From: Pontixanthobacter aquaemixtae
GTDB taxonomy: Bacteria; Pseudomonadota; Alphaproteobacteria; Sphingomonadales; Sphingomonadaceae
Length of the DNA: 64,000 nt
Direction of reading: 5' to 3'
Assembly: GCF_009827395.1 (NCBI RefSeq)
Contig: NZ_WTYX01000001.1
Span: forward strand, 708,001-772,000
Below are positions 23,504-51,855 of the stretch, in pieces; the first letter of the stretch is position 1, and each line of letters starts with the position of its first letter. A program made the translations under genes and the position numbers. The notes beneath the pieces were generated by a model. It ran no database searches and was not told where the DNA came from. It saw only the letters and a list, made by a program, of their open reading frames with translations.

Positions 23504-24799
23504 TTACTCCGCCGCCTCCACAATTTCCTCGACCGGGTCGTACATTTCCTTCGCGCGCGCACGGCGTTCGAGCAGCGAGTATTCGGGGAATATCGGGTCC
23601 GCGACATCGCGATAGGCGCGCAGGTGCTGTTTCGCGACAGTCACCTTATGCACTTCGGTCGGCCCATCGGCGATGCCCATCACCATTGACCCGATCAGGC
23701 TGCCGACAAAAGGCATCTCGTTCGAAACGCCCAGCGAACCGTGAATATGGATGCAGCGGTGCGCAATGTCGTGATAGACCTTGGGCATCAGCGCCTTGAT
23801 CGCGGCGATGTCCTTGCGAACCTTGCGATAGTCCTGATATTTATCGATCATCCATGCGGTTTTGAGGACAAACAGCTTGAACTGTTCCAGCTCGATATAG
23901 CTATCGGCGATCTGCATCTGGACGGCCTGATAATCGGCGATGGTACCGGTCCGTGTCTTCCGGCTGACCGCGCGGCGGCTCATCGCGTCGAGCAAGCGCT
24001 TGCAATTGCCGACCGTGCGCATTGCATGGTGGACTCGGCCGCCGCCCAGCCGGGTCTGCGAAATCGCAAAGGCGCCGCCTTGCTTGCCCAGCAGATGATC
24101 GGCGGGGACGCGCACATCGGTATAACGGACGTAACTTTCCGAACCGTTGTCCTGGCCATAGACTCCGACATTGCGGACAATCTCCACGCCGGGCGTATCG
24201 ACCGGAACAATGAACATGCTCATCCGCTCGTGACGCGGCGCATCGGGATCGGTCACCGCCATTACAATCAGGAAATCGGCCCATTTCCCGTTGGTCGAGA
24301 ACCATTTCTCGCCATTGATCTTCCAGTGGTTTCCATCGATTTCGGCGCGGGTGACGAAATTGGTAGGGTCGGAGCCCCCTTGCGGCTCGGTCATGGAGAA
24401 GGCCGAAACGATCTCGTTATTGAGCAGCGGTTCCAGATACCGTGTTTTCTGTTCCGCTGTCCCGTAATGCGCAATAATCTCTGCATTTCCGGTATCCGGC
24501 GCCTGGCAACCGAACACGATCGGCGCGAATGTGGCTCCGCCGAGAATCTCGTTCATAAGGCCCAGCTTTACCTGACCATAGCCTTGTCCGCCGAGCTCGG
24601 GCCCGAGGTGACACGCCCACAGTCCTTTTTCCTTCACTTCCTCTTGAAGAGGCCGGACAAGTTCGTTTCTCTTGGGATTTTTTACGTCGTATGGGTGGAT
24701 GCCCAGCAGGCCGAGAGGCTCGACTTTGTCGCGAACGAATTCGTCCATCCAATCGAGTTTTTCCTGAAATTCAGAATCGGTTTCGAAATCCCATGCCAT
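23504..24799 (-). CDS. acyl-CoA dehydrogenase, ACAD10/11-like
   Basis: Acyl-CoA dehydrogenase of 431 aa, resembling the ACAD10/11 branch. Motifs: FSMTEPQGGSDPTNFVTRA, INGEKWFSTNGKWADF, RLGGGRVHHAMRTVG, HIHGSLGVSNEMPF and, at the C-terminal FAD/substrate site, GIADGPTEVHKVTVAK. In that branch the GPTEVH segment replaces YEGTSEIQ. Start ATG 24799 follows GGAGAGAG; the open frame to 24922 has no better site. It is the first gene of the minus-strand operon (ACAD, two GPH symporters, two-subunit ACAD, MFS). ACAD10/11 relatives handle long or hydroxylated acyl chains, but the substrate here cannot be assigned. Confidence 0.92.
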   Translation of the reverse strand: MAWDFETDSEFQEKLDWMDEFVRDKVEPLGLLGIHPYDVKNPKRNELVRPLQEEVKEKGLWACHLGPELGGQGYGQVKLGLMNEILGGATFAPIVFGCQAPDTGNAEIIAHYGTAEQKTRYLEPLLNNEIVSAFSMTEPQGGSDPTNFVTRAEIDGNHWKINGEKWFSTNGKWADFLIVMAVTDPDAPRHERMSMFIVPVDTPGVEIVRNVGVYGQDNGSESYVRYTDVRVPADHLLGKQGGAFAISQTRLGGGRVHHAMRTVGNCKRLLDAMSRRAVSRKTRTGTIADYQAVQMQIADSYIELEQFKLFVLKTAWMIDKYQDYRKVRKDIAAIKALMPKVYHDIAHRCIHIHGSLGVSNEMPFVGSLIGSMVMGIADGPTEVHKVTVAKQHLRAYRDVADPIFPEYSLLERRARAKEMYDPVEEIVEAAE

Positions 24800-25047
24800 C
24801 GCTATCTCTCTCCACATAGGCACCTTTTCGGCGCTCATCAGGTGAGCATACCGAGATTTCAGATATGAGCAAGAGAGGACTTTCTGCGCGCGCCAATTGG
24901 CGCATGCATCTTGGCCCGGCACATCGATCTATCGAAGCGCTGGGGTGCGAGACTGCCTGCGAATTCCGCAACAGATTATGCTCGGGCCGAAGGCGTACTT
25001 GTCTTCTTGAAAATGCGAACGAGCCGGGGAGGGGGGGCCCGGTTGCT

Positions 25048-26379
25048 TTAGGTCAGCAATTCATTGATCGTGCGGTTTGTTTCCATCGACAGATGGCCCC
25101 AGCGTTCAACCGGCACGCCCATCACTTGCTGAACGGTCAGGCCAACCCGTGAAATGGGATCGCCCCCTCCGGCCATGTGGAATCCGGTGCGAACTTTTCC
25201 GCCTGCATTGCCCGCAATCATCACCGGAATGCCTTCAACTGCATGCGATTTGGCGATTGAGCAGTCCGAATGGGCGAGTACCAGACAATTGTCGAGCAAG
25301 GTGCCGTCGCCCTCTGGAATCGCCGACAAAGCATCCAGAAAATCGCGCCAGCCGAGCATGCTTTGCGTAACGAACTGGCTGTGCTGTTTCTGATAGCCCA
25401 ACTGGCGATCGTCTGGTTCCTCGTGAGTAAGCGTGTGGTGCGTAGTGGTTTCGCCGGGCAGTCGCAGATTCGATGTGGTGTCAGAGAAGAGCATATTGAA
25501 AACTCTTGTCTGGTTGCTCTGCAACGCGCGCGCTAACAGCCCTGCCATGAGGCGATGCGTCTTGAGGACGTCGCCAATTTCTGATCCGGCGCCTTGCGAA
25601 TCCGGGGCATCGGGGCGGGAGAAATTTTCTACCGGGGCAGGCGGCTGAAGCTGTAGCTCAAGCTGCTGCTCGATTTGCCGGATCGAGGTAAAATATTCGT
25701 CTAGCCGATGTTTGTCTGCGGCCCCAACTTCGCGCATCAAACGCTGCCGATCTTCGGAAACAGCCGAAAGCACGCTTTTGCGTGTCATGACTTCTACATC
25801 CGGCTCGAACGTTCCCGAGTTGGGGTCGACAAATCCGGCGCCGAAAATCCGTTTGTAAAGTTCTGCAGGAGAAGTCTCGCTCGGGTTGGGGGAACCGGCG
25901 GAAAAATAGGAATAGGAATTTTCGAGACCGCAGCTGCTGATTTCGAGCGAACGAAAACGCGTTTCACCTCCGATAATCTGACTGATCAGAACATCGAGAG
26001 TGGGCGCTTTCACATTTGTGTCGGGCACGGGGATCCCCGTTCGCATCCCAAGGCAGCCTGTAATATGGGGTTTGTTGGCGACCCCATCGAGTTCGACATC
26101 AAATCCGCTAAGGATCGCCATCTTGTCCTTGTAAGGGGCAAGCGGTTCCAAATCCGCGGGGAGTGCAAAATTTGACCCCGTGGCGGAAGGTATCCATTTC
26201 TCCGGAATAAAGCCGCAGCCCCAGATCCATGTTCCAAACCGTGTCGGGATACGTTGTCCGGTCGCTGCAAGAGCCTGACCGTTATTGTCGAGCATGTAGT
26301 CCAGAAACGGGAGCGAAACGCCCACCGCCGCGCCGCCAACGGCACCGCGCAAAATTGTCCGCCGTGTAAGACTTTTCAT
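25048..26379 (-). CDS. DUF1552 domain protein, Tat-type signal
   Basis: DUF1552 protein, 443 aa, predicted to be exported. The N-terminus MKSLTRRTILRGAVGGAAVG carries a twin-arginine pair followed by a moderate hydrophobic stretch, resembling a Tat signal. The mature part shows features of the family: RFGTWIWGCGFIPEKW, LAPYKDKMAILSGFDVE, GCLGMRTG, TDTLDVL-like segment around 125-140, FSDTTSNLRLPGETTTHH and LVLAHSDCSIAKSHAVEG. DUF1552 is known mainly from Planctomycetes and myxobacteria next to DUF1592-type proteins, with no established function. Here the start overlaps the upstream DUF1592-type gene by 4 bp (ATGA), as expected for a functional pair. Confidence 0.88.
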   Translation of the reverse strand: MKSLTRRTILRGAVGGAAVGVSLPFLDYMLDNNGQALAATGQRIPTRFGTWIWGCGFIPEKWIPSATGSNFALPADLEPLAPYKDKMAILSGFDVELDGVANKPHITGCLGMRTGIPVPDTNVKAPTLDVLISQIIGGETRFRSLEISSCGLENSYSYFSAGSPNPSETSPAELYKRIFGAGFVDPNSGTFEPDVEVMTRKSVLSAVSEDRQRLMREVGAADKHRLDEYFTSIRQIEQQLELQLQPPAPVENFSRPDAPDSQGAGSEIGDVLKTHRLMAGLLARALQSNQTRVFNMLFSDTTSNLRLPGETTTHHTLTHEEPDDRQLGYQKQHSQFVTQSMLGWRDFLDALSAIPEGDGTLLDNCLVLAHSDCSIAKSHAVEGIPVMIAGNAGGKVRTGFHMAGGGDPISRVGLTVQQVMGVPVERWGHLSMETNRTINELLT

Positions 26380-28085
26380 TGCCCGTCTCCATTTGCGGCA
26401 TTGTTTTTCGCCACGCGCCTTGCTGGCTGATCCATAGGACGGACCACAGCAAAGAAATTGTCGCTGGTTGCTATTCGCTCCATGAGCGATGGGACTTGAT
26501 AATCGTCATCTGCAAACCCTTCGATCAACCAATCGAGATAGTAGCGTTCCTTCCAGGTGATATCCCTGCCGACAGCAGAGGTGTACATCCGCTGCGCAAG
26601 GCAACGCGGTGTTTCGGGATGGTTTCGCAATGCTTCTGCAAGATCGTTTGTCGACGCGAAGGCCTGACCGTCAAGATCGCCCGAAAGGTCGATCAAAGAG
26701 CCGTTTTCGTGAGTCCGGTGAGAACCTGCACCGTCATAGGCTTCGAGCGCAAAGCCAATCGGATCCATCACCTTGTGGCAGCCAGCACAGGATGGCTCGG
26801 TGGAGTGGATGTCCAACCGGTCGCGGGCGGTGACATTGGCCTTGTCGACATGTTCTTCGATCGCGGTGAAGTTCACGCTCGCCGGTGGGTCAGGTACTTC
26901 CTGGCACAGGAATATCTTGCGCATGGCATATCCGCGTAGCGTGGGAGAAGATCGGCCCGGATGCGAATGCAAGGCAAGAAATGCGACATGCGATTGAATG
27001 CCGGCGCGATTGGCGTCAGGCTGGAATCGGACGGCTTGCCAACCTTCCCGCTTGGGTATCGGGGTTTTGTATATCACCCCGAGCGATCGGGTAAGGAAAG
27101 TGTCGCGGAGCGTGAACAGATCGCGATAGTCACCGCGATTTTCCAGCAGGTGATCCTCGATTGTTTTCAGAGTTTGCTCTTGCGCTTCGCCAGCCACAAC
27201 CGAGTTGAATGCCGGGTAGATTTGCGGGTCTTTGCTGGTCTCGCCGAAGTCATCAAATTCAAGCATGTCAGCAAAGAAACTGCGCACCGCCTCGGGATAA
27301 CGCTCTGAATCCATCAGCCGCGAAACCTGGCGGCTTACTCCCCAGCTGCCGTCTAGACTGCCGCTCGCCGCCGCATCGAGCAGTTCGGCATCAGGCGGCG
27401 CATTTGTAAGAAAGAAGCTCAGCCGTTCGGCCTTTGAATAGGCGTCGAGTTCCACAATTGCGCCGTCATTCCCTGCCGCCACACGTTCGATGCGGAACAG
27501 GAAGTCTGGCGCGATCAGCATTGAGTACAGGCCCAGTTCGAGCCCGGCATAAAAGCTCCCCAATTGACCGGTGGCGCTTCGCGACAGCCCGACAAATCCG
27601 GAAAGTTCGTCCTGCGAAAGCGGGCGCCTGAACAACAACCGGCCCGTTTCGCCGAGGAATTTCTGCGCGCATGCGGCATCAAATTCGGTTTCGTTCTTTG
27701 GGCCGCAATCAAGGAAAGCGGCGCGGCGTTTCTTCGAAAGGACGCTGGCTGCGATGCCTCTGGCGCTTACTTCATACTGCTCGACAGCGAAGGGCGAGAT
27801 ACCGGCGGCTCCGGTGCCAACAGCAACAAGACCATGCGAACGGAATGGTCGTTCAAACCGTCCGGTGATCTCGGTTTCCGGGCCAAAAATATCGGCGATC
27901 GCATTGCGATATTGTTCCTCGGTCAATCTGCGCACCGTAGGCGGACCGCCCTCCGGGTCAGGTTCGTCGCTGCTGAAAAGCATGACAGCGGCAAACGCCA
28001 ACATCAGGCCCATGATGGCAAACACCACAAATTGCCGCGCCGGTATGGGCATATTGGCCATCAAGGATGAAACGCGATTTGCCAT
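26376..28085 (-). CDS. DUF1587/1595/1592/1588/1585 multidomain protein with haem c motif
   Basis: Exported or membrane-anchored protein of 569 aa with an N-terminal hydrophobic segment (FVVFAIMGLMLAFAAVMLF). The domain order is that of planctomycete-type cytochrome-associated proteins: DUF1587 near 48-110 (VRRLTEEQYRNAIADIFG), DUF1595 near 150-210 (LLFRRPLSQDELSGFV), DUF1592 near 215-345 (AERLSFFLTNAPPD), DUF1588 near 355-460 (HPGRSSPTLRGYAMRKIFLC) and DUF1585 near 480-550. A covalent-haem motif Cys433-Ala-Gly-Cys436-His437 lies in DUF1588. It is preceded by a membrane-anchored unknown protein (1-bp overlap) and followed by DUF1552 (4-bp overlap). Function unknown; the haem motif and a triheme cytochrome next door suggest a periplasmic redox role. 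Confidence 0.9.
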   Translation of the reverse strand: MANRVSSLMANMPIPARQFVVFAIMGLMLAFAAVMLFSSDEPDPEGGPPTVRRLTEEQYRNAIADIFGPETEITGRFERPFRSHGLVAVGTGAAGISPFAVEQYEVSARGIAASVLSKKRRAAFLDCGPKNETEFDAACAQKFLGETGRLLFRRPLSQDELSGFVGLSRSATGQLGSFYAGLELGLYSMLIAPDFLFRIERVAAGNDGAIVELDAYSKAERLSFFLTNAPPDAELLDAAASGSLDGSWGVSRQVSRLMDSERYPEAVRSFFADMLEFDDFGETSKDPQIYPAFNSVVAGEAQEQTLKTIEDHLLENRGDYRDLFTLRDTFLTRSLGVIYKTPIPKREGWQAVRFQPDANRAGIQSHVAFLALHSHPGRSSPTLRGYAMRKIFLCQEVPDPPASVNFTAIEEHVDKANVTARDRLDIHSTEPSCAGCHKVMDPIGFALEAYDGAGSHRTHENGSLIDLSGDLDGQAFASTNDLAEALRNHPETPRCLAQRMYTSAVGRDITWKERYYLDWLIEGFADDDYQVPSLMERIATSDNFFAVVRPMDQPARRVAKNNAANGDGQ

Positions 28086-29299
28086 TACTTGGTCTGCTTT
28101 GCGTTCTTGCCCGATTGCTCCACAACGAAAGCGGGGCGGGCTTCAAATTTGTATTGCGTAGAAATGCTGGTGAACTTTCCGCTCTTGTCCGGGTGACCAT
28201 CGGCCAGTTTGTGCAAGGATTGCCACATGCCCTGGCAAGTATGGCCAAGAACCCGCGCTGCGCCATTGGCCGAGCCAACCCGCCGCGCCTCGTCCGAAGG
28301 CTTCCCTTCGGCGTCCTTCCCTGTGCGATAGCCGAACTGGAAGTCATAGAGCTCAACCACATCGGTATAGCCGGCCAAATAGCCATCCATCACGCCATCA
28401 GCTGACAATCTGGCGCGGATCCGCGCTTCGCGTAGAGGCCGTTCAAGATACATTCCGTTGACGACATAATGAAAGCGGACATCGACCGGTTCTGAAACAA
28501 GAACGCCATTCTCGATCCGACCGCTGGTCTGGCCGCGAAACCGGGGCTCGCGGTCGCGCGAATAGGTCCCATAATCCAGCGCTTCGCGCGAAGGGCTGAG
28601 CATCATTGGGTCGGCATTGGCGGAGATTGTGATATCGACGTCGCTGTCATTTTCCAGATCGTCAACGCCGCTCAGCGAGATCAATATACCCCATTCGCCG
28701 ACATACATCCCCTCTTCAAACCCGCGCGAAGGGCCGTCTTGCTGGTAGGAACGGTTGCATCCGACAGCGCGCCAGAATTGGTTGTCCACGCCGGTGGTTC
28801 CGTCAGCGGCAGCGAAATCGAGCCGGCCGCTGGTAAGGTCTGACTTCGACCGGGAATTCTTGCCATCAAGGTCAATCCCGCCCGCTTGCGCTTTGGGATC
28901 CAGCATAATTTGGGTGTTAGGATCAAGAGGAGCGATTTCCGGGTTTACGCAGAAATTGCGGCCGTCCGGCGCGTTTGAAATTGCGCGTCCTCCTGCCTCG
29001 ATCCGCTCGCCATAGGCTTCGTCCGTTTCGCCCGCACGCCGTTTGCCATTGGCGGTTTCCGAAAAGATTTCAGCCACGTTTTTTGAAGGACCATTTGGGC
29101 AGCTGTCGGTGCCAACCGCATCAGGCCCCAACGCATAAGCAAATTTCGTAACGATAAAGCTGGCGTTCCCATCGCGAATGAGACCGCCCGATTCGGCCGA
29201 AATCCTGTCATCCGGCCACCACCACCATGCCGCCATTCCCCCCGCCGCGATTGCAATCGCGGACAGCCATAGGCGGGATGATGCAGTTTTGTGCGCCAT
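28085..29299 (-). CDS. unrecognised membrane-anchored periplasmic protein
   Basis: Protein of 404 aa that I do not recognise. Residues 10-27 form a signal anchor (LWLSAIAIAAGGMAAWWWW), and the rest is soluble and acidic, so it should sit in the periplasm. It contains several cysteines (near 62, 116, 174 and in GHTCQGMWQSL) that could form disulfides; there is no CxxCH. Features include a segment DADITISANADP-like around 225 and a repeated mix of beta-rich sequence. It is the first gene of the DUF1592/DUF1552 operon and overlaps the next gene by 1 bp. No strong ribosome site precedes ATG 29299. Its tight linkage suggests it is part of the same complex. Confidence 0.8.
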   Translation of the reverse strand: MAHKTASSRLWLSAIAIAAGGMAAWWWWPDDRISAESGGLIRDGNASFIVTKFAYALGPDAVGTDSCPNGPSKNVAEIFSETANGKRRAGETDEAYGERIEAGGRAISNAPDGRNFCVNPEIAPLDPNTQIMLDPKAQAGGIDLDGKNSRSKSDLTSGRLDFAAADGTTGVDNQFWRAVGCNRSYQQDGPSRGFEEGMYVGEWGILISLSGVDDLENDSDVDITISANADPMMLSPSREALDYGTYSRDREPRFRGQTSGRIENGVLVSEPVDVRFHYVVNGMYLERPLREARIRARLSADGVMDGYLAGYTDVVELYDFQFGYRTGKDAEGKPSDEARRVGSANGAARVLGHTCQGMWQSLHKLADGHPDKSGKFTSISTQYKFEARPAFVVEQSGKNAKQTK

Positions 29300-29330
29300 G
29301 TCGGAGAACCGGATAATCTATTTCTAACAC

Positions 29331-29347
29331 CCCTGTTACTAACAGGG
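29331..29347. promoter_or_regulatory. 17-bp perfect palindrome, probable TetR operator
   Basis: CCCTGTTA-C-TAACAGGG is a perfect 8-bp inverted repeat around one base. It lies 32 bp upstream of the 29299 start codon and 81 bp upstream of the TetR start at 29428, in the only divergent gap of this locus. Size and symmetry fit a TetR dimer site overlapping the promoter of the DUF operon. Confidence 0.65.
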
Positions 29348-29427
29348 TTGCAAGAAACTGCAAGCCGCAATAGTAAGGGGCGCAATTTGGGGCGGCACAC
29401 CGCCGTCTGATGTTGACAGGAATGCTT

Positions 29428-30009
29428 ATGGCACGCCCGATTTCAGTCACTGACGAAGCCATTCTTCTGGCAGCCGACGAGGTCATGGCCGAACAGGGAA
29501 TTCTGGATTTCTCTGTGTCGGAAGTTTCGCGCCGGGTGGGCTTGTCTCGCGCGGCTGTAACGCTGCGTTTTGATAGCCCGGCCGCACTAAAATGCGCGGT
29601 CTATGATCGGGCGACCAAACGCATGGCAGGGTATATTGCCAGCTGGGACATCACGCCCGGGGGGGAGGGTTTGCTGGAAATTGCGGGTCAGATCGGACGG
29701 CTGGTTGGCGGCAAGTCCAAGCTCGGCATGTTTATGATGCGTCTGAGTGAAAATATCGAAGATCCGGCAGCGCGCGAGATGGAGCTGGAACGCGGCCGCT
29801 TGGTCCGCGATGCGGTGGCCAAGGCAATGCCCGAGACTTCCGTCAATCGGGATGATGCTGTCAATGCATTCATGGCGCAGGTCACTGGTTCCTTGATTGC
29901 GTGGCGATCTTCGACGGAATCCGATGCAGAGGCATTTCTGGTCAGCAGAATCAAGGTCTGGCTCGCCCTGACGGGCATTTGCGTGGCGGAAGGGGCAGAA
30001 GGAGCGTGA
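29428..30009 (+). CDS. TetR family regulator
   Basis: TetR-type transcriptional regulator, 193 aa from ATG 29428, which has AGGA six bases upstream; ATGs at 29410 and 29422 are in frame but have worse sites. The N-terminal helix-turn-helix is FSVSEVSRRVGLSRAAVTLR followed by the family F(D)SPAALK segment. The C-terminal two thirds are helical and would bind the effector. It overlaps the triheme cytochrome gene by 4 bp (GTGA), so both are translated together, and it lies divergent to the DUF1592/DUF1552 operon with a perfect palindrome between. The likely role is repression of both transcripts until a ligand is bound (inferred). Confidence 0.9.
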   Translation: MARPISVTDEAILLAADEVMAEQGILDFSVSEVSRRVGLSRAAVTLRFDSPAALKCAVYDRATKRMAGYIASWDITPGGEGLLEIAGQIGRLVGGKSKLGMFMMRLSENIEDPAAREMELERGRLVRDAVAKAMPETSVNRDDAVNAFMAQVTGSLIAWRSSTESDAEAFLVSRIKVWLALTGICVAEGAEGA

Positions 30010-31295
30010 GCAAGAAGGTTCGCTTTGCAAGGCCCAGCTGGCGCCGGATTGGCTTTGCCGCGTTGCTGCTCGCGGTGCTTGCCGGCGGGGTCGCTGCGTA
30101 TTTCTTCTGCCCGCTGCCATATGATCGTGCCCCAGCGCTGGCATCTCTCGACGGGGATCCCGTTCGCGGAGAATATATTGCCACAATCGGGAACTGTGCG
30201 GCATGCCATACGGTGCCTGGCGGGGCGCCCTATGCCGGCGGCGTCAAGTTTGTCACTGATTTCGGGACGATTTACTCCACCAACATTACATCCGATGACG
30301 CAAACGGTATTGGTGGCTGGAGCTTTGCGGCTTTCCATCGCGCGTTGAAGCATGGCATCGGGGACGGGGGCGAACATCTCTATCCAGCGTTTCCCTACAC
30401 CTCGTTCTCACGAATGACCGATGACGATATCGCTTCGTTATATCTCTATTTCCAGACTGTGGAGCCGGTGGCGGAAGGCAACCGCGAAAACGAGATGTCA
30501 TTCCCGTTCGGCTATCGCGATTTGCTGCACTTCTGGAAACGAATGTTTCATTCGCCGCGGCCGTTCACGAACAGCCCTGCGCTTAGCAGTGAAGGCAATG
30601 AGGGGGCATATCTGGTCGAGGCTGTGGCGCATTGTGCGGAATGCCACACACCGCGCGGGATGTTGGGCAATGCGAACCGGAGCCGCATGTTTCAGGGCGG
30701 GACTTATGTCGATGCAACGCGGAGGGGAACTTACCGCCAATGGGCTGCAGTGGACCTGACTCCCGGCGCGCACGGCCTGCCGACATGGACCGAGCAGGAC
30801 ATGGACCAATATCTGGCGACCGGCATCAATCGCCATGCGGTTGTGCATGGACCGATGAACGAAGTGATTGAAGCGACCCGGCAATTGAAACCAGCCGACC
30901 GGAAAGCCATTTCACGCTATTTTTCGGAGTTAAAACCGAGCCCGACGCGGTGGGATTTGTCACTGCCGTCTTGGGGCGTTGACGATGGAGAGGTGGTCTA
31001 CACTGTCCATTGCGGGACATGTCACCTTCCGGAAGGTGATGGCGATCCTACGTTGGGCGTTTCATTACAACAAAACCCCATCATCCAGGCCGAAGACCCC
31101 AGCTCTTTGATCAATGTCATACTCTACGGTCCCGATTTGCCGCCGCCACCGTTTTCGGTGGACCGGTCGCAGATGAAGCCGTTCGGACGCCGGCTTTCTG
31201 ATGAAGATATTGCTGCCCTTGCGACTTATCTCAGAAGCAATTTCGGCAACAATGCGTCGTCGGTCTCTGCCTCGCAGGTTGTGCGTCAGCGATAG
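30006..31295 (+). CDS. triheme membrane-anchored cytochrome c
   Basis: Membrane-anchored c-type cytochrome, 429 aa, with three haem-binding motifs: Cys64-AA-Cys67-His68, Cys210-AE-Cys213-His214 and Cys336-GT-Cys339-His340. This spacing is that of the cytochrome subunits of alcohol/gluconate dehydrogenases (three cytochrome c domains of about 130 residues). Residues 14-35 form the N-terminal membrane anchor (IGFAALLLAVLAGGVAAYFF). The start is GTG 30006 with AAGGAG upstream, overlapping the TetR stop by 4 bp. No partner dehydrogenase gene is adjacent; the neighbours are the DUF1592/DUF1552 genes, so it may carry electrons from or to that system instead. Confidence 0.92.
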   Translation: MSKKVRFARPSWRRIGFAALLLAVLAGGVAAYFFCPLPYDRAPALASLDGDPVRGEYIATIGNCAACHTVPGGAPYAGGVKFVTDFGTIYSTNITSDDANGIGGWSFAAFHRALKHGIGDGGEHLYPAFPYTSFSRMTDDDIASLYLYFQTVEPVAEGNRENEMSFPFGYRDLLHFWKRMFHSPRPFTNSPALSSEGNEGAYLVEAVAHCAECHTPRGMLGNANRSRMFQGGTYVDATRRGTYRQWAAVDLTPGAHGLPTWTEQDMDQYLATGINRHAVVHGPMNEVIEATRQLKPADRKAISRYFSELKPSPTRWDLSLPSWGVDDGEVVYTVHCGTCHLPEGDGDPTLGVSLQQNPIIQAEDPSSLINVILYGPDLPPPPFSVDRSQMKPFGRRLSDEDIAALATYLRSNFGNNASSVSASQVVRQR

Positions 31296-32126: not shown

Positions 32127-33284
32127 CTACGCAGCTTGCGTAGCCTTTGCGTCGACCGTAGCCAGCGCACGGGTTTGTGCAAGCGAACTGCCAAAACTGT
32201 GCAGACCGAGAGCATGCAGCCCGCCAAGGCCACCAGCAACAAACAGGATGATGTCCTTGGGCTCCGGCGTCGCGTAGATAAAGCCGTCCTCGCGAATCCG
32301 GCCCTGTGCTTCGACTTGAACGCGGTGATGTTCCTGAAGCCAGTCACCGGGAAGCTTGGCGAATTTCCAGATTGCTTCCTGTACGTCTTCTATATTCGAA
32401 ATCTCGCGCGCAATCAGATCGGCACAGATCGGATTAATCCCGATATACATTTCCGAATATTCCATCGCGGGGGAGAAGCAATTCGCAGCCGGGTAGGCGA
32501 CCGATTTTCCGATCATCTCGATGAAGGCCATCGCGCCCGTCGAAGTGGTGTCGAGAATGTTCATAGTACCCATCGTGTTCATGGCCGTTACGGCATTGCC
32601 GCTCACGCCCCTACGTTCGGCAAGCGGCGCCCATGGGGAACGTTCTTCGAACTCACCCATCACGATACTTGCCAAACGTCCCGGAGAACCAAAGGTCGTC
32701 TGCGAAGTGACCCCTGCAACTTGTCCTGCAACATTGCGCATTACCAACCGGATCGCCCGGCCAATGGCGTTGGCCTGCGTTGCGACGCCGCCCGCGCAGC
32801 CATAGCTGCAGGGGATATCCAGTTCCTTGCGGATGGGCCCATTCACTACAAATGCCGGGTATACCGACGCGGTTGTTGCGTTGACGCCGTAAAGTTCGAA
32901 ATCGGGCTGAGTCACACCTTCAAGTGCTGCAATAATCAGCTCGAGCGACTCTGGCCGTGCACCCGCCATGACGGCGTTCACCACGATCTTTTCAACCGTG
33001 CATTCTGTGCTGTCCGGCATCCGTCCGATAACTTTGTCAGGATATCTGTGGTTTTCGGAAAGAAATGCACGAACCCTGTTTTCGGTCGGTGGAACCAAAG
33101 GCAGGCCATCTCCCCATCCTTGCTCCAGCGAGAGGGAGGTGAAGGCCGAGATGTCATCATCGACTTCGACTCGGTCGCTGACCAGCCAGTCAATTTCGCA
33201 TGCTTCTGGGCCGCAATCGTGGCTAACCAGCGTGTGCGGCACATTGGCAGGGCGACCGGATGGGCGGATCTTATGAATGGTCAT
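32127..33284 (-). CDS. UGSC-associated partner protein
   Basis: Protein of 385 aa without a catalytic family that I can name. The segment LEQGWGDGLPLVPPTENRV resembles one found in proteins fused to, or encoded next to, UGSC-motif (seleno)proteins. Other conspicuous features are Gly/Ala-rich SYGCAGGVATQANAIGRAIR, FGSPGRLASIV, and several Cys residues. No signal peptide is seen, so it is probably cytoplasmic. It overlaps the UGSC gene by 4 bp (ATGA) and precedes the SDR. The linkage suggests a two-protein enzyme. Family recognition is from memory of the GW(G/T)DGLP motif, so function is left open. Confidence 0.8.
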   Translation of the reverse strand: MTIHKIRPSGRPANVPHTLVSHDCGPEACEIDWLVSDRVEVDDDISAFTSLSLEQGWGDGLPLVPPTENRVRAFLSENHRYPDKVIGRMPDSTECTVEKIVVNAVMAGARPESLELIIAALEGVTQPDFELYGVNATTASVYPAFVVNGPIRKELDIPCSYGCAGGVATQANAIGRAIRLVMRNVAGQVAGVTSQTTFGSPGRLASIVMGEFEERSPWAPLAERRGVSGNAVTAMNTMGTMNILDTTSTGAMAFIEMIGKSVAYPAANCFSPAMEYSEMYIGINPICADLIAREISNIEDVQEAIWKFAKLPGDWLQEHHRVQVEAQGRIREDGFIYATPEPKDIILFVAGGLGGLHALGLHSFGSSLAQTRALATVDAKATQAA

Positions 33285-33841
33285 GCCGCCGCCTTCTGCT
33301 CGCCAATGCTTGCGCCCATGACTTTGATCAACCCGTCAAAATACTCCTCCGCAACCGGATCGACTTCTGCGCGTGAAAGCTCATTGAGCGGGTAGGGGAG
33401 CACGTGCACCCGCATTCCCGATCGTCCACCACGCTCGGAAAGCTCGTGAGCAAATTCCTCAAAATTCTGGGTGGCGACGACTGTGGTTGGCAGCCCTGCA
33501 TTTGCCGAAGCGATGGCATCGTGCACTGTCCAGCCCGTGCAGGAGCCGCAATTGGCGAGGCCAAAGATCGCGCAATCAAGCGTATCGAGCCATTCGACAA
33601 GCGAGCGCAGCTGTTCTTCGCCTTCCTCCCCTGACCGGTTGGTTGACCGCCAATAGGATACTTCGGCGCCGGCTGCGCGGAACTTTGCTTCCCAATTCTC
33701 GCTGATCCAGTCCCAGCAACGCCAAATCTGGTCGACGCGGATTCCAATCTTTTTGCCTGCAAGAGGGCCGGCATCGGGTCCGGGGCTGGCATTGTCGCTT
33801 TGCCGATTGGCTGTTGGATCGAGAACTTTGATGCTGCTCAT
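33281..33841 (-). CDS. UGSC-family protein, cysteine form
   Basis: Small protein of 186 aa matching the UGSC family, named after a Sec-Gly-Ser-Cys motif found in metagenomic selenoproteins. Here the motif is Cys98-Gly-Ser-Cys101 in ANCGSCTGWTVHDA; both codons are TGC, so no selenocysteine is needed. The CxxC-like pair suggests a redox-active centre. Around it lie KKIGIRVDQIWRCWDW near residue 30 and LPTTVVATQNFEEFA after the motif. ATG 33841 has GGAAAGG upstream. It is the first gene of an operon with its partner protein and an SDR, opposite a LysR regulator. Reaction unknown. Confidence 0.83.
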   Translation of the reverse strand: MSSIKVLDPTANRQSDNASPGPDAGPLAGKKIGIRVDQIWRCWDWISENWEAKFRAAGAEVSYWRSTNRSGEEGEEQLRSLVEWLDTLDCAIFGLANCGSCTGWTVHDAIASANAGLPTTVVATQNFEEFAHELSERGGRSGMRVHVLPYPLNELSRAEVDPVAEEYFDGLIKVMGASIGEQKAAA

Positions 33842-34977: not shown

Positions 34978-37119
34978 TTGCGCATTTTTGCCCGGACACA
35001 ATCAACCAGGTTTTTCCTGATCGCACTCGCCGTGATACCCCTTGAATCCTGCGCCAACCGTCAGCTTGATTCTGGATTTCCTGTTGAGCAGGCTCGTATC
35101 GCTGAACGTGGATATGTCGCCGAGGATATTGGGTTTTCCAAGCCGTTTATAGACCAACAGGAATGGCGCGATTCACCGGTGCGCCATTATTACGTGCATG
35201 GCGGCTTTGCCGGAACACAGACCCGCTTCTCTTACTATTTCCCACCCGAAGACGGTTTCGAAAATCGTTTCTTCCAGCACGCCACGCCAATCCCGCTGAG
35301 CGAAAATTTGGCGCAGCAGGTTGCGCCGGGCCCATACAACAAGATCGGGTTTTCGCTCTCCAGTGGAGCCTACTTTGTTGAAACGAACGGAGGCGGCAAA
35401 ATTGATCTCGGGCAGGGGCCGCGCGGGATGCAGAACCCTGAAATCACCGCCTTCCGGGCCAATGCCGCCGCCGCACAGTTTTCGCGCTTTGTCGCGCAGC
35501 AATTCTATCAAACAAGCGATCGCCCTTTTGGCTATCTTTACGGGGGATCAGGCGGTGCATTTCGAACCATTGGCAGTCTGGAGCGGACTGAAGGTGTTTG
35601 GGACGGGGGCGTGCCCTATGTGAATGGGTCGACGCTGGCCATACCCAATATGTTTTCGGTGCGGATGCAGGCATTGCGGGTTTTGCGCGGCAAGTTTCCC
35701 CAAATCGTCGACGCAGTTGAACCGGGCGGGAACGGCAACCCCTATGCCGGCTTGACCGAACACGAGGCATCGGTCCTTCGCGAAGTCGAAAAAATGGGCT
35801 TTCCCATGGAAAGCTGGACCGGCTGGCAAGATATGGGCTTGCATGGCTTTGCTGCGCTCTATGGCGGCGTTGCGCAGGCTGATCCGACGTATTTCGCCGA
35901 TTTCTGGGAAAAGCCGGGCTATCTGGGACATGACCGGCCCGAACTTTTCGTAAAGGACCGCGTGCAGCATGCCAGCAAGATAACGCATTTGCTCTCGGCA
36001 TCCGACGCCGCGCGATTGGGTATCGGTGTCGACAGATTTGCGGAAGCCAATCGCGGCGGAGTCGACAACGCATTTCGTGAGGGCGCAGGGCAACATGTCG
36101 TCGGCATCAAGCTATCGGTGCCACCAGCGCCGGACTATTTCCTTGGCGGTGAATTGATCATCAAGAGCGGTGCGCTGGCGGGAAACCGACTGATGGTCGA
36201 CAAGATTGTGGACGGGGTGGTCGTGTTTGGCGTGGCCGATCCGCGGAGCATCAGGCAGCTCAAAGTCGGTGACGAAGTTGTTGTCGACAATTCGAACTTC
36301 CTGGCGATGGAATCCTATCACCGGCATCAGGTTCCGCCCGAAGGCTTTCCCGTGTGGGATCAGTTTCGCGATAAAGAAGGTAACCCTGTCTATCCGCAGC
36401 GCCCGATGCTTATCGGCCCTTTGTTCGTCCGGAATACCGCGGGCAGCTTGTTGACAGGAAATGTCGGTAGCGAGAAGGTCATTCTCGCCGCTTCTTTATG
36501 GGATCGTGAAGCCATGCCTTGGCAGGCGGACTGGTACAGACGCCGCGTAGAGGCGCAATCAGGCGCCGATGCGGTTCGCCTTTATTACACTGACCACGCG
36601 GTGCACGGCGACGGCCCGGTCGTTGAAGATCCGTCGCGCATCGTTTCCTACGAAGGAACTCTGCAACAATCGCTGCGCTTGCTGGCAGCATGGGTGGAAG
36701 AAGACGTTCTACCACCAGAAAGCACACAATATCGCGTCGCAGACGGTCAGGTGATCGTACCCACAGCTGTGGAAGATAGAAAAGGGTTGCAACCGGTCGT
36801 GGCATTGACTGTCGGCGGGAACAAAAGCGTGACGATTGCTGCAGGCCAACAGGTCCGTCTGCATGGCGCATTTGGCATCCCACCTGCTAGTGGAAAGGTC
36901 TCCAGCGTAGAATTTGACTTCGACGGCGACGGGATATTCGATCCAATTGATCTGGCCGCGCAAGCGCAAGAAATTTCCGTGACACACCTCTACGATACGC
37001 CCGGAACTTATTTCGCCGGCTTGCGCGTGACCGCCCAGCCAGAAGCGGCGCTGGGAACCCCATACGCGCAATTGTCCAATATCGATCGCGTCAGGATCGT
37101 GGTCAAACAGGCGGAGTAG
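34978..37119 (+). CDS. exported alpha/beta-hydrolase-like protein with PKD-like C-terminus
   Basis: Large protein of 713 aa that I cannot place in a named family. The N-terminus is hydrophobic (STRFFLIALAVIPLESC), a signal peptide with a possible lipoprotein Cys25. A nucleophile-elbow-like motif lies in GYLYGGSGGAFRTIGS with Ser191, so an esterase or tannase-like hydrolase is plausible. Near 650-705 a PKD-like domain appears (VEFDFDGDGIFDPID and LYDTPGTYFAGLRV). The start is TTG 34978 with GGTGAG upstream; no ATG start fits. The ThDP enzyme follows 15 bp later, so the two share an operon. It could process an ester or polyester before uptake; this is inferred from fold hints only. Confidence 0.72.
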   Translation: MRIFARTQSTRFFLIALAVIPLESCANRQLDSGFPVEQARIAERGYVAEDIGFSKPFIDQQEWRDSPVRHYYVHGGFAGTQTRFSYYFPPEDGFENRFFQHATPIPLSENLAQQVAPGPYNKIGFSLSSGAYFVETNGGGKIDLGQGPRGMQNPEITAFRANAAAAQFSRFVAQQFYQTSDRPFGYLYGGSGGAFRTIGSLERTEGVWDGGVPYVNGSTLAIPNMFSVRMQALRVLRGKFPQIVDAVEPGGNGNPYAGLTEHEASVLREVEKMGFPMESWTGWQDMGLHGFAALYGGVAQADPTYFADFWEKPGYLGHDRPELFVKDRVQHASKITHLLSASDAARLGIGVDRFAEANRGGVDNAFREGAGQHVVGIKLSVPPAPDYFLGGELIIKSGALAGNRLMVDKIVDGVVVFGVADPRSIRQLKVGDEVVVDNSNFLAMESYHRHQVPPEGFPVWDQFRDKEGNPVYPQRPMLIGPLFVRNTAGSLLTGNVGSEKVILAASLWDREAMPWQADWYRRRVEAQSGADAVRLYYTDHAVHGDGPVVEDPSRIVSYEGTLQQSLRLLAAWVEEDVLPPESTQYRVADGQVIVPTAVEDRKGLQPVVALTVGGNKSVTIAAGQQVRLHGAFGIPPASGKVSSVEFDFDGDGIFDPIDLAAQAQEISVTHLYDTPGTYFAGLRVTAQPEAALGTPYAQLSNIDRVRIVVKQAE

Positions 37120-50484: not shown

Positions 50485-50550
50485 GCGCCCTGATGCTTGC
50501 GACGCCGTATGGAACGGTGCAATCAGCATGGCTCGATAGGGAGCAAGAGA

Positions 50551-51855
50551 TTGCATGTGTGGCCAGCCTTTGCGTTTTTTCTCGCCGTGGCGGGCGCACC
50601 GGGCGCGGCGTTGGCCAACGAGCCCAATCAGGAGACCGGACAGGACATGAGCAACGAGCAAGCGGAAAATGACACGCAACCCCTTACGCTGGAGGATTGG
50701 TCCGCATTCATTGAAAATGTCCGTGCTTTGCCGCAGCAAATGTTGGAAAAGCTGCCCGAGGACCAGCGCAGTGATCCCCGCATACAGGAAGAAGTCACCC
50801 GATTGGCTTTCCAGTCGCTCATTTCGGTTGGACTCGACACTCTCGGTGGGGATCCCGATTTCCCGCAATTTCTGCCAACCATTTCTGAAGTGATGAACGT
50901 TGGTCAACCCAACGCTGATACCATCTACCGTGCAGCGCGTATCGCGCCTGATGGCACATACCGGCTGACCGGACTGCGCGGGTCGCTTAATCAGGCGGTG
51001 GTCAGCCAGGTCGTTCCGCGAAACGCGGAAACCGGCAAAGGGCGCGCGCATCTGGACCTGAACGAGATCTCTGTCGATGCTGATGGCCGCTTCGATGTAT
51101 TGATTAGCGCAAGCAAGCCGGAAGGGTTTGCGGGAGATTGGTGGGAATTGCGGCCTGCCGCGAACCGCCTTCTGGTGCGTTTGGTAAGTTCAAATTGGGC
51201 AGAAGAACGGTCGCCAACACTATCGCTTGAAAGGCTCGATTTGCCCATGGGGCAGGGGCGCGAGGAAGCGGGAGCATTTGCGCAAAAACTCAAGGCTGCT
51301 CCGGTTGCCATGGATTTCCTTGGCGGGATGTTTGTAGATCGCGTGCAGGCGCTAGCGGAAGAGGGATTTGTCCATCGTTTCAAGCCCTTTGACATCACCT
51401 CTGCAGGTGGGTTGCAGGGGCAATTTTACTACGAAACAGTCTATCAGCTGGAAGACGATGAAGCGCTCGTTATCGAGACCGAAATCCCCCTTGAGTGCCC
51501 CTATCGCTCGTTGATCCTGACCAATCATCTGTATCAAACGACCAATTGGTACAACAACCACTCCAGCCTCAACGGCGATCAATCACCTCCCGACAGCGAT
51601 GGCAAATGGCGGGTTGTGGTCAGCAATGTTGATCCGGGGGTCCGTAACTGGCTGGACCCCGCTGGGTTCAAGCGCGGTATCATCCAAGGGCGCTGGACCA
51701 ATTGCAGCGATACACCGGTTCCGCAAATCGAGCTGGTAAAGCTTGCGGAACTTGATGCGCACCTTCCTGGCGACGTCGCTCGTGTCACCGCCGAAGAACG
51801 CGATGCAATTATCCGTAATCGGCGCGCTGCGCAGCTGCAGCGGCCGCATTGGTAA
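50551..51855 (+). CDS. DUF1214 domain protein, exported
   Basis: Protein of 434 aa with the DUF1214 region: NVGQPNADTIYRAARIAPDG near the middle and FYYETVYQLE followed by ECPYRSLILTNHLYQTTNWY near the C-terminus. The start is uncertain: TTG 50551 has AGGGAG about seven bases upstream and gives the signal peptide HVWPAFAFFLAVAGAPGAAL. ATG 50647 would remove this leader, and ATG 50509 would lengthen it. I chose 50551 because the leader is a convincing signal sequence. It is the first gene of a short plus-strand operon with a SnoaL-like protein and a class II aldolase, divergent from the Rieske operon. Function of DUF1214 is unsettled. Confidence 0.82.
   Translation: MHVWPAFAFFLAVAGAPGAALANEPNQETGQDMSNEQAENDTQPLTLEDWSAFIENVRALPQQMLEKLPEDQRSDPRIQEEVTRLAFQSLISVGLDTLGGDPDFPQFLPTISEVMNVGQPNADTIYRAARIAPDGTYRLTGLRGSLNQAVVSQVVPRNAETGKGRAHLDLNEISVDADGRFDVLISASKPEGFAGDWWELRPAANRLLVRLVSSNWAEERSPTLSLERLDLPMGQGREEAGAFAQKLKAAPVAMDFLGGMFVDRVQALAEEGFVHRFKPFDITSAGGLQGQFYYETVYQLEDDEALVIETEIPLECPYRSLILTNHLYQTTNWYNNHSSLNGDQSPPDSDGKWRVVVSNVDPGVRNWLDPAGFKRGIIQGRWTNCSDTPVPQIELVKLAELDAHLPGDVARVTAEERDAIIRNRRAAQLQRPHW

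Follow-up and report, generated by a model that had tools for sequence, protein, structure and literature searches.

Organization of the Locus

The locus described here occupies positions 25048–31295 of the window, by which we mean the whole 64,000-nt stretch of Pontixanthobacter aquaemixtae DNA that was analyzed (GCF_009827395.1, NZ_WTYX01000001.1, 708,001–772,000). It holds five genes, termed A to E. Three of them run on the minus strand in the order C, B, A, namely an ORF of 404 aa without Pfam or NCBIfam match (C, 28085–29299), a gene for a 569 aa protein with five PSCyt3/PSD domains by Pfam and one CxxCH motif (B, 26376–28085), and one for a 443 aa DUF1552 protein (A, 25048–26379; Pfam PF07586). 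The reading frames overlap by 1 base between B and C and by 4 bases (ATGA) between A and B. Divergent from these on the plus strand is a gene for a TetR-family regulator of 199 aa (D, 29410–30009), whose Pfam TetR_N match is weak but above the cut-off (29.7 bits vs. 24), followed on the same strand by a gene for a triheme cytochrome c of a dehydrogenase subunit family (E, 30006–31295). The ORF of E is listed from 29901, and we chose the GTG at 30006 as its likely start, giving a protein of 429 aa and a 4-base GTGA overlap with the stop of the TetR gene.

The 110-base gap separating C from D contains a perfect 8-1-8 palindrome, CCCTGTTA-C-TAACAGGG (29331–29347), extended by imperfect arms of 18 nt (29321–29357), which is a candidate TetR operator. 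Perfect 8-base arms arose in 6 of 2000 dinucleotide shuffles of this gap when the spacer was at most 1 base, and in 31 of 2000 when it was at most 10 bases. A genome-wide scan found no second site with fewer than three mismatches, and the two sites with three mismatches are within the level of the reversed control (9 per strand). Sigma-70-like promoters were not found by a scan of the region, a scan that says little for this bacterial group. The five genes and the coordinates of the locus, the overlapping three-gene operon, the TetR/cytochrome overlap and the perfect palindrome had all been described in an initial annotation of the window and all hold. Its proposal that the system is inducible is plausible, given the divergent TetR gene, the genome-unique palindrome and a further genome (G486) in which a TetR gene is likewise divergent from its own C-B-A operon, with D as the putative regulator.

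The next gene in the minus-strand run after A encodes an acyl-CoA dehydrogenase (23504–24922, minus strand) and may share a transcription unit with C-B-A; ACAD-like genes are present in five others of the 24 loci read (see below). Neighbors in the window further include acyl-CoA enzymes, transporters, a Rieske oxygenase and a flavoprotein, and an SDR gene also adjoins E. At 32127–33841 of the window, a UGSC-family protein overlaps a 385 aa protein without Pfam or NCBIfam match, and the catabolic island of the window carries two long ORFs (34978–37119, 713 aa; 50497–51855, 452 aa) that match neither database at the thresholds used.

Features of Proteins A, B, and C

Protein A matches PF07586 (DUF1552, HXXSHH) with 186.7 bits against a cut-off of 30. 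It lacks the HxxSHH motif, as taken from the Pfam name, and has HTLTHE in its place, in which the first two histidines (315 and 319) are kept and the last is replaced. Among 23 sequences of the clade to which A belongs, position 320 is Glu in 22 and Asp in one, while His105, His315, His319, Glu321, and His379 are invariant in all 23. The N-terminus of A is of the twin-arginine type, as judged by a simple pattern rather than a signal-peptide program, and the pattern is found in 20 of the 23 clade members.

A structural model of A (pLDDT 76, pTM 0.75) gave 43 matches to PDB chains with E ≤ 0.001, the best at 1.6e-6, though TM-scores were only about 0.3–0.45. Among the 50 best matches, those down to E 0.001 are sulfatases, lipoteichoic acid synthases and related enzymes, and a sulfatase/alkaline-phosphatase-type fold is predicted for A. 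These enzymes and their kin make up the alkaline-phosphatase superfamily, which has a Ser/Thr/Cys nucleophile and an Asp/His metal site. A may resemble the superfamily in its predicted fold and differs from it in having no sequence match and in its His-rich conserved positions. From topology, His315-x3-His319 would match the spacing of the Asp-x3-His metal ligands in alkaline phosphatase, and His105 would sit at a helix start that may correspond to the nucleophile position. Attempts to link A by sequence to solved structures were unsuccessful (best E-values 0.28 and 0.36), as was a comparison with one sulfatase by hhalign, the alignment of which was confined to the signal region.

Protein B matches PF07626, PF07637, PF07631, PF07627, and PF07624, all above cut-off, in the domain order DUF1587-1595-1592-1588-1585 (residues 52–115, 139–200, 213–339, 360–460, and 472–544). 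It has the PSCyt3/PSD architecture, including a CxxCH within DUF1588 (CAGCH, C433–H437). The N-terminus bears a hydrophobic segment, in place of which some relatives have a lipobox-like site. In all 24 sequences aligned, the CxxCH, His427, and His375 are invariant, Met440 is not conserved, and His427 is a candidate for the second heme ligand. The best PDB match to the model of B (pLDDT 82.6, pTM 0.82) had an E-value of 0.97, against a threshold of 0.001, and sequence comparison linked B to no solved structure up to an E-value of 1. Protein C has an N-terminal hydrophobic segment and drew no Pfam or NCBIfam hit at E 0.01; a profile comparison with PDB structures gave nothing better than E 0.2.

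Distribution and Phylogeny of the Three-Gene Unit

PF07586 was found in 23 of 396 Sphingomonadales genomes, so that the initial description of DUF1552/DUF1592 as occurring mainly in Planctomycetes and myxobacteria was too narrow. Eight of the 23 hold an A of the window type, the seven others being 41–83% identical to that of the window, and the remaining 15 hold only another DUF1552 type (24–30% identity). In a second search of the same 396-genome draw, a profile of C gave matches in exactly the eight genomes with window-type A and in none of the 388 others, including the 15 with only the other type. Counting the genome of the window in each case, the family sample yielded C in 11 of 328 genomes and the phylum sample in 2 of 398; it was found in none of seven genus mates. 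C usually precedes B (21 of 24 loci), the exceptions being G001, G046, and G192, where it lies downstream of A. Genome G001 has a second C, around which 10.5 kb was read and neither A nor B was found, and G192 has a second copy in the same stretch.

The recurring unit is therefore the three genes C-B-A and not all five, as the combination of TetR, E, and C-B-A occurs only here among the 24 loci; the idea that all five genes are conserved as a unit was rejected. Trees of A (30 sequences) and B (31 sequences) each separate the clade of the window from the other type with support of 100/100, the A tree carrying a long-branch warning on its outgroup, and the two trees agree on the main groups of the clade. 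Window-type A and B are clades distinct from other DUF1552 and DUF1592 proteins. The clade also takes in a Myxococcota bin (L028) and an unplaced bin (L027).

Matches to C also occur on Sphingobium and Novosphingobium plasmids (13 records, of which one is typed as conjugative). Horizontal origin, which had been suggested for the locus, is consistent with these sphingomonad megaplasmid copies and with the patchy distribution, whereas recent transfer was rejected on base composition, which is ordinary (57.0% for 25048–31295 against a mean of 58.2% in 65 windows from 13 stretches, z −0.96).

Two C-matching places are present on 10 of 11 plasmids of the Tom-series Sphingobium isolates, and the one such plasmid read (L111) carries C-B-A, cytochrome c′ and b561. 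According to PMC10653915, these isolates come from tomatine-treated soil, and the words “cytochrome” and “DUF” are absent from its main text. On plasmid pMSHV of Sphingobium herbicidovorans MH the C region (L112:12662-14007) is annotated as two overlapping hypothetical proteins, and C may be split or frame-shifted there; this strain carries C-B-A with c′/b561 where the window has E. In G298, the nearest relative by A (83% identity), C is reduced to its last third (L104:17124-17594), and an aldehyde-dehydrogenase-looking ORF on the opposite strand runs into this remnant, reflecting either a rearrangement or an assembly fault. A VOC/glyoxalase-fold protein is encoded directly downstream of A in L065, L066, L156, and L028 and one gene further downstream in L102 and L069. 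The set is repeatedly accompanied by matches to PF03640-type secreted repeats (Lipoprotein_15), namely in L027, L065, L068, L070, L071, L154, and L156.

Pairs of PSCyt3/PSD and DUF1552 genes in Planctomycetes, Verrucomicrobia, Acidobacteria, and others share the order of a B-type gene followed by an A-type gene, with L029, where A precedes B, as the sole exception among the loci read with both genes. The clade of the window differs from these pairs in its separate position in the trees (100/100, with 22–32% identity), in possessing C and neighboring electron carriers, and in having HxxTHEE for HxxSHH. PSCyt/PSD proteins are described in passages of PMC5615132 as lying beside two uncharacterized gene families and as being of unknown function, and the DUF names are merely listed in passages of PMC7789669 and PMC6004670. 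Among open-licence articles in PMC, we found five that mention any of six of the DUF names, no paper with both DUF1552 and DUF1592 and none on the C-B-A set.

Electron-Carrier Genes Near the Unit

Electron-carrier genes were sought with phmmer queries in stretches of 8–30 kb around 24 loci, comprising 10 from the eight genomes with window-type A, G409, G486, seven further genomes of the family sample, L027, L028, and 3 of the 13 plasmid records with C. Carriers were found near 18 of these, with cytochrome c′ at 14, b561 at 11, HiPIP-like proteins at 10, and E-like cytochromes at three. Selected hits for HiPIP, c′, b561, and the PF03640 secreted repeat were borne out by Pfam, although one HiPIP-like protein fell just below cut-off. 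The six carrier-free loci are G298, which is near a contig end on the A side, L027 and L028, which are short contigs, G269 copy 1, and G117 copy 1 and G192, each of which has a PQQ-type dehydrogenase gene. E-like genes and c′/b561 do not coincide (0 of 3 E loci have the latter vs. 14 of 21 others), numbers too few to establish mutual exclusion.

The queries for c′, b561, and HiPIP gave no match in 14 control stretches of the window's own genome, which are blind to carriers that this genome may lack, nor in seven stretches around E homologs in other Sphingomonadales, a fairer but small control. Cytochrome c′ and b561 also lie beside 7 of 11 loci of the other B-A type of Sphingomonadales, which is deeply diverged from that of the window; these 11 come from the 15 genomes with only that type, leaving aside G146, G382, G023, and G101. 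No carrier was found near B-A in 34 loci on contigs whose titles name no sphingomonad, two of which show neither A nor B at the threshold used, several others being short. The presence of the same carriers beside both deep B-A types is the best argument for an exchange of electrons between B-A and the quinone pool, though the two types may have this arrangement through shared ancestry. The neighborhoods did not point to a common substrate, as the other loci differ from the window and none emerged.

Cytochrome E and Its Relatives

Cytochrome E is homologous over most of its length (271–399 residues) to the cytochrome subunits of glucose, alcohol, fructose, and aldehyde dehydrogenases, with E-values down to 1.6e-72, and its closest solved relatives are 8hdd_B, 8gy2_B, 7w2j_C, and 8gy3_A. 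Triheme subunits of this kind pass electrons to ubiquinone. E is like them in sequence and in its three CxxCH motifs, and differs in being adjoined by C-B-A and by no dehydrogenase: its neighbors are the TetR gene, C-B-A, and the SDR gene, with no gene for a flavin, PQQ, or molybdenum dehydrogenase beside it.

The two best non-self matches of E in the 396 genomes (G001 and G046) both lie beside B-A and reach 330 bits, against 253 for the next. The three B-A-adjoining E proteins form a clade with support of 99/98 in a 23-sequence tree and 99/96 in a 28-sequence tree; the E of the window sits on a long branch. Of 30 candidate loci, 7 with matches shorter than 330 residues were left out of the E trees. 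In the tree of A the two E-bearing lineages are not sisters, so that E was either ancestral and then exchanged, or has moved. The two nearest relatives showed no E-like gene beside them; these are G117 copy 1 and G298, where the stretch read extends 17 kb on the side of C and about 0.5 kb on that of A.

Elsewhere, homologs of E usually adjoin a dehydrogenase. This is the case for all seven other Sphingomonadales loci read, each beside a molybdopterin dehydrogenase (seven of the eight highest-scoring other matches, G186 being left out). Of 508 plasmid records with an E homolog, five were read: in two the homolog adjoins a GMC dehydrogenase, in a third it falls within what is annotated as a molybdopterin protein, in a fourth an FAD oxidoreductase follows three genes away, and the fifth carries no annotation. 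In the window, C-B-A holds the place of the dehydrogenase.

The contrary possibility, that the cytochrome is tied to a dehydrogenase outside the locus, has been excluded only in part. E is the sole match of its kind in its genome, which also encodes a 761 aa molybdopterin protein (PF20256; G000:C1:32323-34608, L189:6324-8609) about 700 kb from the locus. The gene of this protein sits between those of a NUBPL-type ATPase and a ferrochelatase, with no directly adjoining 2Fe-2S small-subunit gene and no CxxCH ORF of at least 90 aa in the surrounding 16 kb read. The genome further has one GMC protein of 528 aa, in whose 3.4-kb locus CxxCH does not occur, and a 768 aa PQQ protein with a heme motif of its own.

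Proposed Function of C-B-A

Taken together, these data suggest that three co-traveling genes make an unrecognized redox enzyme outside the inner membrane. We consider the chances about evenly balanced that C-B-A is the core of an inducible, membrane-attached periplasmic oxidoreductase feeding the quinone pool. A would be exported folded via Tat and would probably be the active-site protein, its sulfatase-like fold housing a metal site rich in histidines. B would be anchored in the membrane, bear one c-type heme, receive electrons from A and hand them to a replaceable carrier, in this case E, while C might help with the substrate or with assembly. Electrons would thus run from substrate to A, to the heme of B, to E, and to ubiquinone, a path of which we infer every step, together with the metal, the regulation and the substrate class. 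D, bound at the 17-base palindrome, would keep both divergent gene groups repressed until it met a compound consumed or formed by the acyl-CoA catabolic island around the locus.

This reading is supported by the strict tracking of window-type A by C (8/8 vs. 0/388), by the carriers near 18 of 24 loci, against 0/14 and 0/7 control stretches with c′, b561, or HiPIP, by c′ and b561 beside the other B-A type, by the twin-arginine start and invariant histidines of A, and by the invariant CxxCH and His427 of B. It also draws on the kinship of E to dehydrogenase subunits, the clade of B-A-adjoining E proteins, and the position of C-B-A where dehydrogenases otherwise lie. The initial proposal that the genes form a periplasmic redox system equipped with a dedicated cytochrome is supported by the family of E, its uniqueness in the genome and the recurrent carriers. 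Against this reading stand the six carrier-free loci, the 34 contigs without carriers, the opposite strands of E and the operon, the occurrence of E-like genes at only 3 of 24 loci, and the molybdopterin enzyme, which could use E in trans, besides the PQQ protein. The sulfatase-like fold of A, which is usually hydrolytic, also weighs against it, as do the low TM-scores and the failed sulfatase comparison.

The direction of flow might also be the reverse, with electrons passing from quinol through c′/b561 or E to B, and A and oxygen attacking the substrate in an oxygenase-type reaction, which we regard as unlikely. Cytochrome b561 is commonly quinol-linked and can deliver electrons from quinol, which speaks for this direction and against one that feeds the quinone pool. 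In solved complexes, however, E-type subunits are parts of dehydrogenases, and we know of no monooxygenase with a sulfatase/alkaline-phosphatase-type fold. A comparable scheme has been put forward in Cellvibrio for a lytic polysaccharide monooxygenase and its possible donor, the heme protein Cbp2D. In excerpts of PMC8981238 and PMC12542752, Cbp2D of Cellvibrio japonicus is a redox protein with DUF1587 and c-type heme domains that is essential for growth on insoluble cellulose and was studied as a monooxygenase electron donor, and its X183 domain could start monooxygenase reduction. Cbp2D differs from B in its CBM, FN3, and YceI-like domains, and no DUF1552 partner is described in these excerpts. 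Against the reverse flow, a section heading of PMC10916295 states that the X183 domains of Teredinibacter do not donate electrons to its AA10 enzyme.

That A is instead a hydrolase or transferase of the alkaline-phosphatase superfamily, with B as a heme-binding or sensing partner and the carriers serving other enzymes, seems quite unlikely. In its favor, the model matches listed down to E 0.001 are sulfatases, lipoteichoic acid synthases and their relatives; on our reading of the topology, however, His105 takes the place expected of the Ser/Thr/Cys nucleophile, and c′/b561 adjoin B-A pairs of both deep types in Sphingomonadales. We hold it very unlikely that E is the orphan quinone-reducing subunit of the distant molybdopterin enzyme and lies beside C-B-A by chance. 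That enzyme lacks an adjoining cytochrome gene, and molybdopterin enzymes flank the E homologs at all seven Sphingomonadales loci read, but the closest homologs of E in the 396 genomes adjoin B-A and share its clade, TetR-E is divergent from C-B-A around a single palindrome, and the molybdopterin gene lies between ATPase and ferrochelatase genes with no 2Fe-2S small-subunit gene directly adjoining it.

The C-B-A gene set is real, specific and apparently undescribed, and there is a good case for it encoding a periplasmic redox enzyme. More tentatively, and with the balance somewhat against it, C-B-A could represent a new class of periplasmic oxidoreductase that combines an active-site protein of sulfatase/phosphatase fold with a monoheme partner of unsolved fold and is served by several respiratory carriers; by the same token, the many orphan PSCyt/DUF1552 pairs of Planctomycetes and their kin would be redox enzymes too. 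The alphaproteobacterial version is tied to well-understood quinone-reducing cytochromes and to a candidate operator, and so offers a handle on the inducer, substrate, and reaction. If the oxidoreductase reading is true, it would add a new enzyme type to bacterial respiration and the breakdown of organic compounds.
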